From positions 1-33,853 of the IMG/VR virus record IMGVR_UViG_3300030328_000116: DNA of 33,853 nucleotides; one strand, 5' to 3'. Under the pieces are notes generated by a model, which was not told where the DNA came from, did no database searches, and saw only the letters and a program-made list of their open reading frames with translations. Made by a program: the position numbers and the translations under genes. This DNA is from a virus. Positions 1,897 through 33,853 of this stretch are shown here, piece by piece (position 1 is the first letter of the stretch; every line of letters begins with the position of its first letter).

Positions 1897-2274
1897 CTAT
1901 GACAGATCAATGGACACTTTAATATCTCCTGCAACTTGTACCTGAGAACGATCTATCGGTTTATATCCTGCACGATCAAGTAAATCCTTCGCAGCCTCAA
2001 GCTGTACGTATTCGCTCTTAGCTCCCGTCACCAGTCTGCGTAACTGTCCTGCGGCTACTGTAGCACTGAGTCCAAACTCCTCTCCCATCCTTTGCATCAT
2101 ATAGTGCTGCACATGAGGGAGCTTTAACGCCTTGGACGCAGTGACTCTTCCGCTTTCGCCACTCGCATACCCAGCTTGCGTGGCTGCTTCTGTAATACTA
2201 CACCCACTTGCTACGATGGTGTCTACTAAAGCAGTCTGTTTATCAGTCAGCTTTCTCTCAGTGAATTGACTCAT
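1897..2274 (-). CDS. terS: Terminase small subunit
   Basis: The 125-residue product has the layout of small terminase subunits. An N-terminal helix-turn-helix region (residues about 8-55: KLTDKQTALVDTIVASG, then SITEAATQAGYA, then KALKLPHVQHYMMQ) is followed by a helical oligomerisation segment and a short C-terminal tail. The small subunit recognises packaging sites on concatemeric DNA and hands them to the large subunit. The pattern of a TEAA-x-x-AGYA recognition helix and a KALK-x-PxVxxY helix is typical of terminase_2-type proteins. It is the first gene of the leftward late block, next to the control region. Start ATG 2274 has an upstream AAAGGATG. Length is usual. Confidence 0.8.
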   Translation of the reverse strand: MSQFTERKLTDKQTALVDTIVASGCSITEAATQAGYASGESGRVTASKALKLPHVQHYMMQRMGEEFGLSATVAAGQLRRLVTGAKSEYVQLEAAKDLLDRAGYKPIDRSQVQVAGDIKVSIDLS

Positions 2275-2292
2275 TCAACATCCTTTCTATGT

Positions 2293-2322
2293 TCTGTAAG
2301 CTTTACATTGAGCCTAAGTCAA
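2293..2322 (-). promoter_or_regulatory. Possible late promoter upstream of terS
   Basis: Reading leftward, TTGACT (2322-2317) matches five of six bases of a sigma70 -35 box. The best -10 candidates at 17-18 bases are TTACAG or TACAGA (2299-2293), which are weak. A weak -10 would suit a late promoter needing an activator, but no dedicated activator or phage RNA polymerase was recognised. The TTGACT lies within the CTNAGTCAAG repeat that recurs twice near the early promoter. Confidence 0.3.
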
Positions 2323-2401
2323 GCAAGCGTTACATCTACTATATCGAGGCAAGCATCAAAACAATCATCTAGTGTGAATTATCCATTGCTACCATCGCTT
2401 G

Positions 2402-2424
2402 CCCCCCTCTCCCTCTCTCCCCCC
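2402..2424 (+). repeat. Polypyrimidine near-mirror repeat (H-DNA / G-quadruplex candidate)
   Basis: Twenty-three consecutive pyrimidines: six Cs at each end, with a C/T stretch between that is almost mirror-symmetric. Homopyrimidine mirror repeats can fold into intramolecular triplex DNA, and the complementary strand, with G6, G3 and G6 runs, could form a G-quadruplex. It lies between terS and the hairpin cluster, in the likely 5' leader of the late transcript. No function is proven. Confidence 0.6.
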
Positions 2425-2461
2425 ATTGATGCCAGTTTTGTTGAGAGCTTGTCAATATCTT

Positions 2462-2492
2462 ACGTGGCGTCACTACCAAAGTGACGTAGCGT
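2462..2492. other. Hairpin 1 of the control region
   Basis: A 12-base arm on each side of the loop TACCAAA. The inner six pairs (CGTCAC/GTGACG) are perfect, and the outer part contains mismatches and G-T wobbles. The sequence TGACGTA in the right arm recurs in the three-way junction at 2830-2836, so the two structures share a motif. Confidence 0.55.
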
Positions 2493-2493
2493 T

Positions 2494-2721
2494 CTATGGG
2501 TTGACAGGTATGGGACAATTCAAGGTGCGTACCGCCATAGCGGTATCGCAGAACATTGAAGATGTTCTTCCGTTGCACCCTTCATCTACCATATGTTTGT
2601 GCTCTGGGCAGTAAGCCCTCCATTCTAGCTGAGAAAAGCACGGAGCACAGACTTTGTTCCAAAGCTCTTTTGCTCTTAGCTTTTCGTAGCCTGAATGGAG
2701 CCTGATGCTTACCGCCCTCAC
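2494..2721 (-). CDS. Doubtful Cys-rich ORF inside the structured region
   Basis: A GTG-started frame on the minus strand encodes 75 residues with KVCAPCF, YCPEHKHM and further Cys residues. The spacing could suggest a small zinc-binding protein. Against it, most of the frame lies inside the 137-nt inverted repeat and two smaller hairpins, which explain the sequence without coding. No strong ribosome binding site precedes the GTG, and the frame is not coupled to terS. I regard it as more likely fortuitous, but it deserves a homology search because a real gene here would change the reading of the region. Confidence 0.25.
   Translation of the reverse strand: MRAVSIRLHSGYEKLRAKELWNKVCAPCFSQLEWRAYCPEHKHMVDEGCNGRTSSMFCDTAMAVRTLNCPIPVNP
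2527..2568. other. Hairpins 2 and 3 of the control region, back to back
   Basis: Two hairpins abut exactly. The first pairs GCGTACCGC (2527-2535) with GCGGTATCGC (2540-2549) around the loop CATA, with one bulged A. The second pairs AGAACAT (2550-2556) with ATGTTCT (2562-2568) around the loop TGAAG. There is no T-run after either on the plus strand, so they do not look like terminators. Confidence 0.6.
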
Positions 2722-2729
2722 ACAAACAT
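2593..2729. ncRNA. Candidate structured RNA: 137-nt rod-like imperfect inverted repeat
   Basis: The ends pair over a long imperfect stem: 2593-2601 with 2721-2729 (9 bp), 2606-2609 with 2714-2717, 2611-2616 with 2707-2712 (GTAAGC/GCTTAC), 2618-2625 with 2693-2700 (CTCCATTC/GAATGGAG), 2628-2630 with 2688-2690 and 2633-2639 with 2679-2685 (GAAAAGC/GCTTTTC). Inside is a further hairpin (2643-2646 with 2664-2667 and 2653-2656 with 2660-2663). About 37 pairs in the outer rod, with small internal loops, cannot be chance. It could be a non-coding RNA, a leader structure on either strand, or a single-strand initiation site in DNA. I cannot match it to a known RNA family, and its transcribed strand is unknown. 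Confidence 0.55.
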
Positions 2730-2778
2730 TTATCTAATCACACACACATGACTTCCAATAGTAACTTCCAGTTGGGCT

Positions 2779-2891
2779 ATCAAATCTAGACTGAGTCAAG
2801 CAGAACAGTTACGCAACGTCAGGCGTGGCTGACGTAACGTAACTATTCCCGACGTAGTCGGCTGCGTACTTGACTAAGCCTAGATTTTGAT
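2779..2891. other. Three-way-junction (cruciform-like) element
   Basis: An outer imperfect stem pairs 2779-2800 with 2869-2891 (about 19 of 22 positions, one bulge; core CTNAGTCAAG on both arms). It encloses two hairpins. One pairs 2808-2822 with 2829-2843 (GTTACGCAACGTCAG against CTGACGTAACGTAAC, 13 of 15) around a 6-base loop. The other pairs CCGAC (2849-2853) with GTCGG (2857-2861) around GTA. The whole lies about 75 bases upstream of the first early gene. It may be an origin structure, an operator array or part of an RNA. Confidence 0.6.
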
Positions 2892-2905
2892 TGCGAGATT
2901 AATCC

Positions 2906-2922
2906 TATACTTACAGAAGTAT
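2906..2922 (+). promoter_or_regulatory. Palindrome with -10-like box ahead of the first early gene
   Basis: ATACTT-acag-AAGTAT (2907-2922) is a perfect 6-4-6 palindrome that overlaps a -10-like TATACT (2906-2911). The matching -35 is weak (GATTTT at 17 bases). The same 6-4-6 architecture is seen at the next two early promoters, so this is probably an operator at the first early promoter. Confidence 0.4.
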
Positions 2923-2965
2923 GTGTGAGTATCAGATATATAGATAATTCAAAAAGGAGATACTA

Positions 2966-3475
2966 ATGTCTATAGTAAAATTAATCGAAGCAATTACACT
3001 TGAAGCAGAAGTTTACAATACTTACGAGGACAAGTGGGAGCAGAGAGATCAACTATCTTTCGCAAGAAAGATAATAGCTGAAGCGATGATGGACAAACTA
3101 TACTGGCTAACCAAAGGCAAGAAAGGTTCAGAGAACTACGTTGAGATGAAGAAAAGAGATGTCGCTTCAGCGCAGTCGGCCTATCGGGGCGACGAGTTGA
3201 GCACTCTAGAGCTACGTGGTGCGACAGCTAACTGCAAGGCAGCTTCCGACAAGCACGACATGTTGATGCAAATGATGTCGGACTTACAGCAGATGTATCG
3301 CACCACGATGTCCGAGGATGCGGACGAGTATTTACCTTATGGGTCGCCTAAAACTGGTAACGTACCAGAACAGGCATCTGAAATACCAGAAGATATACGC
3401 CAACAACTTGAGGCGTTGGGTATGGCGACCCCTGCTAACGAAGTGATTGAAACCAAAGCTAAGAAGAAAGCGTAG
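2966..3475 (+). CDS. First early protein, 169 aa, unknown function
   Basis: I do not recognise this protein. It is mostly helical: residues about 1-110 are rich in Glu, Lys, Met and Ala (for example LIEAITLEAEVYN and MLMQMMSDLQQMYR). A Pro/Glu-rich linker follows, then a basic end (ETKAKKKA). A coiled-coil or helical-bundle fold is likely, and there is no membrane segment. A strong ribosome binding site (AAAAAGGAGA) lies before ATG 2966, and a strong intrinsic terminator follows 7 bases after the stop, so this is a monocistronic, probably highly expressed transcript. Position next to the control region suggests a role in early takeover or replication, but this is inference. Confidence 0.85.
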   Translation: MSIVKLIEAITLEAEVYNTYEDKWEQRDQLSFARKIIAEAMMDKLYWLTKGKKGSENYVEMKKRDVASAQSAYRGDELSTLELRGATANCKAASDKHDMLMQMMSDLQQMYRTTMSEDADEYLPYGSPKTGNVPEQASEIPEDIRQQLEALGMATPANEVIETKAKKKA

Positions 3476-3482
3476 ATCACAT

Positions 3483-3514
3483 GGGTTGAGGCCAAAGGCC
3501 TTGACCCTTTTTTT
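3483..3514 (+). terminator. Rho-independent terminator after the first early gene
   Basis: GGGTTGAGGCC (3483-3493) pairs fully, counting two G-U wobbles, with GGCCTTGACCC (3497-3507) around the loop AAA, and is followed by seven Ts (3508-3514). It isolates the first early gene from the next promoter. Confidence 0.92.
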
Positions 3515-3555
3515 ATGTTGCAGAGGCAGGGGCAGGGCGGCTCTTGGTGATTAGT

Positions 3556-4557: not shown

Positions 4558-4756
4558 ACAAGACTTTGAATTTATTGCTGATGAAATAGCGCCAATGATG
4601 CATTGGCCTACTCACATTGAAGAGCTTGCTGATAAACTGCAAGCACTCAATCCTGATTTTGATAGAGATAAGTTTATACCTCGAGCAACAAATGCTTGGG
4701 AAGAAAACTATCAAGAAAATAGAACGGAGCAAATCAATGACAAAATCCCATATTGA
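4541..4756 (+). CDS. Hypothetical protein, 71 aa
   Basis: I do not recognise this protein. It begins MARWTRQDFEFIADEIAPMM and contains conserved-looking aromatic, acidic and basic residues; two short helices are likely. The ATG follows CAGGAGAAAACAA, a good ribosome binding site. The C-terminus overlaps the next gene by 20 bases. Compact early-protein style; function unknown. Confidence 0.78.
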   Translation: MARWTRQDFEFIADEIAPMMHWPTHIEELADKLQALNPDFDRDKFIPRATNAWEENYQENRTEQINDKIPY

Positions 4757-4979
4757 TGCAATGGATCACATGTTGAATGACATCTTTAGAAAAGTTTTCT
4801 GGAAACCTTTAGATGAATTTGATGATCTGTTCTGTGACGAATGTGATGGAACAGGTCGTATTCAAGTTGAGGTAGTAAGACCTCATGGATTCGGTCGAGA
4901 CGTTGGTGTTCTTGATGTAAAAGAAATCGAGTGTTCAAAGTGTATTGGCTCTGGACAGAACATAAAGAAAGGAGAATAA
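4737..4979 (+). CDS. Small protein with DnaJ-like double CxxCxGxG zinc motif
   Basis: The 80-residue product carries two cysteine knuckles: CDECDGTGRI (about residues 33-42) and CSKCIGSGQN (about residues 66-75). Each has the CxxCxGxG pattern of the DnaJ zinc-finger domain, and together they should bind one zinc ion. There is no J-domain, so it is not a co-chaperone by itself; isolated domains of this kind occur in small phage proteins. ATG 4737 (MTKSHIDAMDHML) is chosen, because the longer frame from 4617 would overlap the previous gene almost fully and its N-terminus looks like an out-of-frame shadow. It is the last gene before a strong hairpin. Confidence 0.75.
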   Translation: MTKSHIDAMDHMLNDIFRKVFWKPLDEFDDLFCDECDGTGRIQVEVVRPHGFGRDVGVLDVKEIECSKCIGSGQNIKKGE

Positions 4980-5052: not shown

Positions 5053-5337
5053 ATGCAAACATACTTAGATACAGTCAGAGATCAAGCAAAGCTTAAGGGT
5101 ATAGATTTATTCCATGCATTTAAGATGGCAGGACTTCCGACTTCTACATACTACCGAACAATCAATGGGCAAACAGAAATGCGATTCGATACTGCGTGTT
5201 CTGTTTTAGATGCGATAGATGAGCAGCACAAAAGAGACGAAGCAGCCAAGCGTACCAAACAATTACGAGACTCTGGTCAGGTTGTTGATAGACGCTCGGC
5301 ACGAAAGGGGCTTAAGCCAAGAAAGCTTAGCGCGTAA
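5053..5337 (+). CDS. HTH transcriptional regulator, repressor-like, 94 aa
   Basis: The product begins MQTYLDTVRDQAKLKGIDLF and contains a Cro/C1-type helix-turn-helix (about residues 13-52: FHAFKMAGLPTSTYYRTING and onward), followed by a basic tail (RRSARKGLKPRKLSA). It likely binds DNA as a dimer. ATG 5053 is chosen; upstream starts would lie inside the promoter. A 6-4-6 palindrome covers the start codon, and no ribosome binding site is present, so a leaderless, autoregulated message is likely. The last 119 bases overlap a second HTH gene in another frame. With no integrase in the genome, whether it maintains lysogeny or only times early expression is open. Confidence 0.78.
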   Translation: MQTYLDTVRDQAKLKGIDLFHAFKMAGLPTSTYYRTINGQTEMRFDTACSVLDAIDEQHKRDEAAKRTKQLRDSGQVVDRRSARKGLKPRKLSA

Positions 5338-5458
5338 GATTGGTTGCACTGAATCTTTGGTTCACAAGTGGGAGCAGTTCAAGCGGATGCCTTCTGGGTT
5401 TATGTTAATGTGTTGGTTAGAGGCACTAGAATATGACATCGAAGCAATTAAGAGGTAA
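5219..5458 (+). CDS. XRE-family HTH protein, 79 aa
   Basis: Residues about 20-75 form a classic XRE helix-turn-helix (LLIDARHERGLSQESLARKI, then CTESLVHKWEQF, then a C-terminal helix), as in Cro/C1 proteins. The domain proper begins near 5282, so translation may start at TTG 5282 or 5285 rather than ATG 5219. The ATG would make a 119-base overlap with the preceding regulator. Two adjacent HTH genes resemble a repressor and its partner, but both lie on the same strand. It overlaps the next gene by 26 bases. Confidence 0.78.
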   Translation: MSSTKETKQPSVPNNYETLVRLLIDARHERGLSQESLARKIGCTESLVHKWEQFKRMPSGFMLMCWLEALEYDIEAIKR

Positions 5459-5753: not shown

Positions 5754-5935
5754 AGTATAGGGATGTATCAAACTTCCCAAGCCCATTCAAAGTATTAGAA
5801 GGTAGAGACATAGCCTTTTATAAAAGACGGAGAGGAACTCCGCAAACTTTAGTCATTATGTCTGGTGAAATGTTTGAACAATTAATGGAGAACCAAGATG
5901 GAATCACAAAACAAACAGATCAAAGCTTACCTTAA
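5582..5935 (+). CDS. Holliday-junction-resolvase-like PD-(D/E)XK nuclease
   Basis: The 117-residue protein has the archaeal-type/VRR-like resolvase layout: GTYHEKWFVKWL helix with Glu13, KRQPLSGSLGGEYSGDI with Asp43, then LVGEVKYRD with the E-x-K pair Glu56/Lys58, and a C-terminal helix. These residues match the catalytic core that coordinates metal for cutting branched DNA. Its likely role is resolving recombination and replication intermediates made by the nearby exonuclease and annealing protein. ATG 5582 follows GAGGATGAG. Length is typical for small phage resolvases. The fold assignment is firm; the exact substrate is inferred. Confidence 0.8.
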   Translation: MVNRNKNKGTYHEKWFVKWLTEIGIKAKRQPLSGSLGGEYSGDIKLELKGKELVGEVKYRDVSNFPSPFKVLEGRDIAFYKRRRGTPQTLVIMSGEMFEQLMENQDGITKQTDQSLP

Positions 5936-6098
5936 AAAAGGTAAAAGCATCAATGCAATACAAGCACTAGAAATGTTTGGCTGCTTTCGATTGGCAGCAC
6001 GTATCAAAGATCTAAAAGAAAGTGGCATGGTCATTGATAAAGCCATGATAGCTAACGAAGAAGGCAAGCATTATGCTTTGTATTGGGAGGTTAGCTAA
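5898..6098 (+). CDS. Winged helix-turn-helix protein (HTH_39-like), 66 aa
   Basis: The product is a compact DNA-binding domain: an initial helix (KQIKAYLKKG), the conserved stretch INAIQALEMFGCFRLAARIK, a recognition helix (KDLKESG) and a short wing ending in YALYWEVS. This pattern is shared with small phage winged-HTH proteins. The start overlaps the resolvase end by 38 bases and the stop forms TAATG with the next gene. It probably regulates transcription or assists replication; no target can be read from the sequence. Confidence 0.78.
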   Translation: MESQNKQIKAYLKKGKSINAIQALEMFGCFRLAARIKDLKESGMVIDKAMIANEEGKHYALYWEVS

Positions 6099-32618: not shown

Positions 32619-33853
32619 TCAACGCACAAGTGACCAAACACTAGGTTTGTGTGCCGCACTTTTAGGTTTTCTTTTAAAAACATCATAGTCTTTTTTAGCT
32701 TGCACTACTTGTGCAGGTTTCTGATTTGACATCAAAGCACGTCCTTCTCCTGCGCCTAATAACAAATATTGTAGTGCATCATGTATATGAGAGTACATAT
32801 TTTTATCAGGTTTATCTGCGTATCGCTCACCACTTACTTCCATACGTTTGTAAGAATAGCCACCTTCAAAACCCTTAATAAGCTGTTGGCATCTTCTGTC
32901 CATCAAAAACGCAGGTTTACCTTCAACCATCTTGTTAAGTTGCTGCGCCACTGACTCCAAGCGAAGATCCACAGAATTGCTCGGGGCGGGAAATGCGCGT
33001 AGGCCAGCACCTCTAAGTATGTGAAAAGGGGTAGATTCGTCCGTCTGCGCCCTAAAATCCCCCGCAGGATCACCATATATATAGACATCGGAAGCTTGAG
33101 AAAAACGAGTAGCGATTTCATTTCTTAACACCTCTGCAAATCTAACGATGCCCATATCAAAAGCAACTACCTCAGATTGAATTAGCCACCTGTTTCTAAC
33201 CTTTTGACCTATAACAGCCGCAGGAGTAAGGCCAAAGTCTATTCCTATATACAAAGGAAGCCCCGAAGCTACTGGTATTTCCTCTTTAGCAATATGCGTT
33301 TCACTAGCAAACATTGGATATACTGGCTTTCCGTCTTGTATCGTGCCTAGTTTATTCATAACATAGACATCAATCCAAGACTTTGTTTTACCTTGTACTA
33401 AGTTTTCATAGTAATTACCAAGCATGTTCTTTTTATTCTCTGCGTAATCACTTGCTTTGTAATTCTCTACCTCACCATCTTCATTGTATATTTCTTTCAT
33501 GCCAGATGGTTGTGTGAAGAACTGCCAATTGTCAGGCTTAACCAACATCTTAGCTTGCTCTCTAGGAATATGATCTGGTACTGGAACTTCACCAGACATG
33601 ATAGGCCACCAATGATCCTCCTCTGGTGCGTTCGTATCTGCAATAACTCCTGTCCAACTCGGCCCACCATCACGCATAGAAGGAAAACGGCCAACTCTCA
33701 TAGTACAAGCATCAATAATACTTTTAGGAATCTCCCTTGCCTCATTTATCCAGATGCCTGTTAGTTCGAGGGACAATAGTTTTTTAACATCTTCTGGACG
33801 ATCAAGAGCAAGGAAGATTACCTCAAGGTCTATGTCACCTTTCTTTATGTGAT
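32619..33853 (-). CDS. terL: Terminase large subunit, C-terminal part with nuclease domain (gene continues at 373)
   Basis: This is the larger part of the gene that begins at 373. The Walker B element lies at LELTGIWINEAREI (full-protein residues about 127-140, catalytic Glu136), and the C-terminal nuclease domain shows YIGIDFGLTP with Asp304, VYIYGDPAGD with Asp360 and HIHDALQYLL with Asp457, the three acidic metal-binding positions of terminase nucleases. The codons across the junction fit without frameshift: bases 2-78 and 33777-33853 are identical. A TTG at 33776 could be mistaken for a start, but upstream codons are clearly coding. It ends at TGA 32621-32619, and the upstream gene order (terL, T/D protein, portal) is typical. 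Confidence 0.95.
   Translation of the reverse strand, partial: HIKKGDIDLEVIFLALDRPEDVKKLLSLELTGIWINEAREIPKSIIDACTMRVGRFPSMRDGGPSWTGVIADTNAPEEDHWWPIMSGEVPVPDHIPREQAKMLVKPDNWQFFTQPSGMKEIYNEDGEVENYKASDYAENKKNMLGNYYENLVQGKTKSWIDVYVMNKLGTIQDGKPVYPMFASETHIAKEEIPVASGLPLYIGIDFGLTPAAVIGQKVRNRWLIQSEVVAFDMGIVRFAEVLRNEIATRFSQASDVYIYGDPAGDFRAQTDESTPFHILRGAGLRAFPAPSNSVDLRLESVAQQLNKMVEGKPAFLMDRRCQQLIKGFEGGYSYKRMEVSGERYADKPDKNMYSHIHDALQYLLLGAGEGRALMSNQKPAQVVQAKKDYDVFKRKPKSAAHKPSVWSLVR
33777..33853. repeat. 77-bp direct terminal overlap, right copy
   Basis: Second copy of bases 2-78. The flanking base differs (G at 1, A at 33776), which changes a Leu codon synonymously (CTG against TTG on the coding strand). 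Confidence 0.93.

Follow-up and report, generated by a model that had tools for sequence, protein, structure and literature searches.

The noncoding region at positions 2275–2965 of an uncultured marine phage appeared to be a bipartite element, in which the left third resembled the late terS promoter together with operator dyads in the DNA, and the remaining two thirds, on the right, looked like a folded RNA (or single strand). The right part (2524–2901) was best read as a cis-encoded structured RNA of ~380 nt, which lies on the minus strand and reads leftward. The conserved structure of the region was well supported, and, judging from the double substitutions found in relatives, it is selection and not odd folding alone that maintains it. 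The favoured interpretation, which is put forward tentatively, was that the structured minus-strand RNA leads into a G-run R-loop element, and that the two form a bipartite control element at which the host would start replication of the phage.

The window, which is the whole stretch of DNA analysed here, was the complete viral record of 33,853 bp. Its ends (1–78 and 33776–33853) overlapped by ~78 bp and were near-identical when compared from the sequences, so that the window is probably a circular assembly. The region divided the leftward terS from the rightward early block, which encodes RusA-like, RecE-like, Erf, and SSB-like recombination genes (PHROG), and the structural and lysis genes lay leftward of terS, around the circle. 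The features of the region and its bordering genes were as follows.

1897–2274, minus strand: terS, terminase small subunit, the first gene leftward of the region (Pfam Terminase_2, E=1.2e-7; PHROG terminase small subunit)
2402–2424, minus strand: paired G-run tract (plus CCCCCCTCTCCCTCTCTCCCCCC; minus GGGGGGAGAGAGGGAGAGGGGGG), a candidate R-loop or hybrid G-quadruplex element
2450–2455, minus strand: -35-like TTGACA box (plus reads TGTCAA), 31 nt before the G-run tract, a probable late/terS promoter
2460–2492, no strand assigned: two TGACGT/ACGTCA dyads, probable operator sites, recurring beside the tract in class-1 loci and more stable on the plus strand
2501–2506, plus strand: TTGACA box, the inverted partner of that at 2450–2455, recurrent in relatives, with no good -10 found
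2530–2545 and 2550–2568, minus strand: two small hairpins of the minus-strand fold, the second with three double-substituted pairs in the group-1 alignment
2593–2729, minus strand: rod hairpin of exactly 137 nt (-70.4 kcal/mol on minus versus -67.0 on plus), with double-substituted pairs in the rod alignments
2739–2778, minus strand: conserved unpaired linker, containing TAACTTCCAGTTGGGCT (plus) at 2762–2778
2779–2891, minus strand: three-way junction (-61.6 kcal/mol on minus versus -50.6 on plus), supported by a covariance-model match and a covariation control
2803–2848: palindromic arm of the three-way junction
2907–2922, no strand assigned: small leader hairpin ahead of the first early gene (ATACTTACAGAAGTAT), with the plus fold more stable
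2966–3475, plus strand: first early gene, of a family without known function, which often adjoins the junction in relatives

The original prediction had described about 690 bases without a convincing gene, which carried a polypyrimidine tract, small hairpins, a 137-nt rod, a three-way junction, and a palindrome. All of these features were present at the positions mapped above, and no ORF of the region was convincingly conserved in relatives; conservation of a protein-coding kind had been named as a pattern that would count against the prediction. The short ORFs were not kept in the L005/L006 relatives, with the exception of a 51-residue rod frame (0.77 similar), which was without an ATG start. 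A protein-coding region was rejected on the lack of convincing ORF conservation and on the replacement of stems, which argues against coding. The stretch was not uniform and seemed to be composed of two different parts, a probable terS promoter side and a folded side.

Both strands of 2275–2965 were predicted to fold strongly, with -228.1 kcal/mol (z -9.57) on the plus strand and -258.8 kcal/mol (z -11.85) on the minus strand, and none of 20 shuffles was as stable in either case. The region had no match in Rfam at the gathering score, and relaxed thresholds gave chance-level matches only. No tRNA or tmRNA was found in the region, and the conserved 25-nt pattern of the junction was not found in cellular genomes. 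In the searches made among named phages, neither the DNA of the region nor gene 2966 had a match, although one of the DNA searches was probably blinded by the low-complexity filter. No description of the element was found in the part of the literature that was covered by the search.

About two dozen distinct relatives were recruited through gene 2966 and the linker, whose 17-mer TAACTTCCAGTTGGGCT occurred exactly in 37 viral stretches. The relatives formed groups; the rods and junction stems were often wholly different in sequence, and the folds were alike. In the three junction groups, 5, 5, and 1 pairs had changed on both sides and were still Watson–Crick; for the rod sets, the numbers were 5, 1, 5, and 13. 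A junction alignment of 22 sequences contained double changes at 11 of the 21 pairs. The covariation in a junction alignment of 14 loci, which excluded the window's own group, was 0.200; shuffling the columns gave 0.100 ± 0.008, and sliding the structure gave 0.057 at most. The covariance model built from these 14 sequences matched the junction of the window at 2775–2901 on the minus strand with 59 bits (E=1.5e-10). Compensatory substitutions, as looked for in a structured cis-encoded noncoding RNA, were therefore present beyond the controls. The option of a structured noncoding RNA, which the original prediction had held equally open, passed its covariation check, with helices covarying across relatives and the minus strand folded. 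As for a core shared by all structured modules, only short k-mers were found.

A strand that is selected to fold is expected to carry its one-sided changes as wobble pairs on that strand. The consensus helices were predicted without G-U pairs, and the distinct mismatch types were summed. The one-sided types comprised 21 A·C on the plus strand, which are G·U on the minus strand, versus 4 G·T on the plus strand (p=0.0009, an optimistic value given that the sequences are related). The predominance of minus-strand G·U among the one-sided changes indicates that the strand that folds is read leftward, toward terS. In two independent sets, with 68 and 29 clusters, the 350 nt adjoining the tract were strongly structured, with z averaging about -4.6. 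Among the matches listed, the minus strand was more stable than the plus strand beyond composition in 53 of 68 sequence clusters of the tract family (p=4e-6), and it was favoured in 20 of 29 further clusters of the variant-tract set (Wilcoxon p=0.015), both p-values again treating relatives as independent. The coding flanks, used as the control, had no structure (z about -0.5) and no strand bias. Wobble pairs and stability thus pointed to one strand, as in a structured noncoding RNA, with the exceptions of L013, L024, and L042, whose junction areas were more stable on the plus strand. The dyad part (2447–2510) was also more stable on the plus strand, which fits DNA operators rather than RNA. 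The wobble and stability data do not separate RNA from DNA, so that a folded single-stranded DNA is compatible with them.

The search for a minus-strand promoter upstream of the junction gave nothing convincing, and near gene 2966 there was one weak match only. On the plus strand, the leaders of L028, L008, and L025 can pair with their own Shine–Dalgarno sequences ahead of the first early gene (CCTTATG...CATAAGG in L028; TCTCCTAT...ATAGGAGA in L008), and the pairing was partial at 2901–2960 of the window; it is possibly a translation switch. The first early gene was followed by a strong intrinsic terminator at 3483–3517, with an 11-bp stem and a T7 run. Gene 2966 itself had no PHROG or Pfam match and was rejected as an initiator, as its model (pLDDT 77.6) gave no significant PDB match and only uncharacterised viral proteins were similar.

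In the left part, the 23-nt tract was the longest purine/pyrimidine run in the window (the next was 18), and no C6 runs other than the two within it occurred on the plus strand. The exact tract occurred in at least 116 distinct viral contexts, of which at least one (L092) resembled a chance match. Among the matches listed, the left neighbour of the tract was terS in nearly all relatives, and in 104 of 109 loci a TTGAC on the minus strand began 30–32 nt ahead of the tract. This distance suits a -35 box; no good -10 accompanied the minus-strand TTGACA box. Strict invariance of the 23-mer was rejected as partly a product of ascertainment. In a degenerate scan, whose matches included some GC-rich or homopolymer chance matches, the constant part was two C6-7 runs flanking a short T...T spacer that varied in length and sequence (TGTAAT, TATAAT, TATGAT, and TTGTGTT). 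A G-quadruplex or R-loop element should allow its spacer to vary freely, which is less to be expected of a rigid protein-binding or cutting site. Furthermore, in L175, L196, L208, L210, and L225, TTGACA followed by two G6 runs was located upstream of a different terS-bearing gene set, which indicates that the G-run element is wider than the family of the window; no named relative was found for this group.

The left side and the structured side recombined among the relatives, with 18 pairs sharing the left side only and 18 the structured module only, these counts being of pairs and not of independent events. In L008/L151, L037/L072, and L041/L145, terS sides that were near-identical continued into structured modules and early genes that were unrelated, and the point of change lay close to the dyads or TTGACA. 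In class-2 loci such as L073, L096, L052, and L099, the TGACGT dyads were replaced by TGTCAACGCACAAA and repeats of TACTACAA or TACTATAA, which are possibly iterons or operators. The regulator candidates for the dyads were a Cro/CI-type HTH protein (5219–5455, plus strand) and a winged-HTH protein (5898–6095, plus strand). A small cysteine-rich protein (4737–4976, plus strand) had weak matches to Q-like antitermination proteins (phrog_6060, E=2.9e-4; phrog_127, E=0.0068).

The nearest named phage was Pelagibacter phage Hodr, with 64% identity in the portal and 52% in TerS. A plain sigma70-like promoter, TTGACA-17-TATACT, preceded its terS, and the gap between terS and the early genes contained neither paired G-runs nor a rod or junction of the window's kind. 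The same gap of Hodr (L163, 2665–2790) had a long inverted repeat of its own. According to the original prediction, relatives that kept promoter boxes and had lost the structures would speak against it; this pattern was absent from the large tract-bearing family but was found in the distant Hodr.

In the favoured interpretation, host RNA polymerase would transcribe leftward through the structured domain, and the purine-rich G-run RNA would stay hybridised to the C-rich template, where a hybrid G-quadruplex formed with the displaced G-rich strand would keep it in place. Host replication proteins would find both a primer and an open duplex in the R-loop, and the phage could do without an initiator, primase, or helicase of its own. 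The RecE/Erf/SSB/RusA-like genes would then amplify the DNA by recombination-dependent replication. Transcription of the RNA, R-loop formation, priming by host enzymes, and origin function are the steps that we infer. A role as origin would be in keeping with the lack of replication genes and with the presence of G-runs prone to R-loops. The absence of polymerase, primase, and helicase that had been claimed earlier held for DNA_pol_A, DnaB_C, Toprim_2, and reverse transcriptase (RVT_1) in the window and the relatives searched, whereas the RNA_pol profile search carried no information, its control being silent. For the families tested, then, no initiator, helicase, primase, or polymerase was recognised, and a G-rich non-template stretch was present downstream of the RNA as a sequence feature, both as expected of an R-loop origin. 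Several points counted against this interpretation, among them the lack of a convincing promoter upstream of the junction and the plus-strand folds of L013, L024, and L042. With a TTGACA box directly before the G-runs, some transcripts may begin at that box and bypass the structured RNA; replication functions could come from protein families outside the tested set; and Hodr, a relative, was without the whole element. The cumulative GC skew did have a local minimum, with its steepest change, in this region, which the original prediction would have taken as support for an origin, but the minimum coincided with the divergence of gene orientation and therefore says nothing about an origin. A retron msr-msd was rejected, as no reverse transcriptase was nearby.

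The main rival, which was considered rather unlikely but only slightly less probable than the favoured interpretation, is that the region controls late transcription, acting as a switch for the long late operon, which runs leftward. In that case, the dyads would be operators, and TTGACA together with the G-runs would act as a late promoter of a specialised type that includes an early pause site; host RNA polymerase would be made termination-resistant either by the structured minus-strand RNA or by a Q-like protein. The fixed distance of TTGACA ahead of the G-runs and terS, the promoter of Hodr at the same place, the HTH regulator at 5219–5455, and the weakly Q-like zinc protein at 4737–4976 are all consistent with it, and antitermination by RNA alone exists in putRNA of HK022, a cis-acting phage RNA that needs no phage protein (PMC9378689). 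However, putRNA has ~70 nt with two stem-loops and acts on early transcripts, whereas the structured RNA here has ~380 nt and lies upstream of the probable late promoter. The structure was on the right strand upstream of terS for a leader of this type, but the TTGACA box lay between them, and a transcript from this box would start after the structured RNA, which would not be its leader. In addition, the structured modules were wholly different among relatives that share the promoter side.

The other explanations were given less weight. A trans-acting noncoding RNA, in which the released minus-strand RNA would act on a host or phage target such as RNA polymerase or a host defence, was judged improbable; the element is large, stable, and modular, and an arms race would be expected to give such rapid change of sequence under a kept structure, but in all cases it went with the terS side and the G-runs, and it had neither an Rfam match nor a common core across modules. 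Marginally less probable still was a folded single-stranded DNA, with the minus strand exposed in replication as a primosome-assembly site or single-strand origin. The wobble and stability data fit DNA equally well, the dyad part was without minus bias, and a phage without primase and helicase matches would suit such a site, whereas the tolerance of G·U-type pairs (G·T being weaker in DNA) and the promoter-like box mildly favour RNA, and no nickase or rolling-circle protein was recognised in the scans made. The least probable, and quite doubtful, was a packaging site, in which the G-run tract would be the pac or cos of the terminase and the structured part would be linked to packaging. The tract was strongly conserved and always beside terS, and a few contig ends were near it (L017, L059, and L090). 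However, its positions were scattered in near-full-length contigs, which counts against cos and not against a circularly permuted pac, the spacer between the runs varied in length and sequence, Hodr was without the tract at 52% TerS identity, and the dyad class did not track the N-terminal type of TerS by inspection.

The ColE1 plasmid offers a comparison for the proposed RNA-primed origin, as its RNA II is a preprimer RNA with a structured part, a G-rich stretch comes after it, and host enzymes are used. The order of preprimer RNA and G-rich stretch and the use of host enzymes would be alike, whereas the G-run element here consisted of two runs with a variable spacer. RNA-based origins are known in phages and plasmids, RNA II being the primer of Pol I (PMC7157519). 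The RNA origins of cluster A mycobacteriophages (RedRock, Alma, and LadyBird; PMC7157519) resemble the region in being noncoding, ~600 bp long, and located between gene blocks with no initiator recognised, and their fast divergence (41–71% identity; PMC7157519) is similar to that of the region. They differ in being prophage origins beside parABS in temperate actinobacterial phages, demonstrated by plasmid replication, whereas no parABS was seen here and both the RNA and the origin are putative. Among the systems compared, the proposed model would especially resemble mitochondrial CSBII. In mitochondria, R-loops that form at two-run G-tracts serve as primers of DNA replication (PMC6317783), and the CSBII R-loop is held by a hybrid quadruplex, with help from SSB (PMC6317783, PMC5027508). 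LSP-CSBII (PMC6317783, PMC5027508) likewise has a promoter followed by non-template G-runs, but it uses a single-subunit polymerase and has no large structured RNA upstream, and the R-loop of the phage is a putative one. At T4 oriF and oriG (PMC3016281), an R-loop made from a transcript also primes, with recombination-dependent replication later; in contrast, T4 has its own replisome and middle promoters, with no requirement for G-runs or structured RNA. GOLLD and ROOL (PMC12286853) are also large structured RNAs that are in part phage-linked, whereas the region matched nothing in Rfam at gathering or relaxed thresholds.

How replication starts in small marine phages without polymerase genes is an open question, and it has been raised explicitly for the MPP-C cyanopodoviruses, which lack DNA polymerase and still carry helicase/primase (PMC9860041). 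The region offers a concrete candidate for which the boundaries, the strand, a covariance model, and a widely conserved G-run signature are available, and the question can thus be tested on one ~700-bp fragment. It is conceivable, though rather unlikely, that marine phages of an undescribed but widespread group, in which no replication genes are recognisable, replicate from a protein-free RNA origin, in which a large fast-evolving preprimer RNA would lead into a paired G-run R-loop with a hybrid quadruplex beside terS, comparable to CSBII and ColE1. Only if the paired G-run R-loop origin is true would the element go beyond a variant of known RNA or origin types. Even if it serves late-gene control, it would be an undescribed structured nucleic-acid element, present in more than 100 marine viral contigs and outside Rfam.
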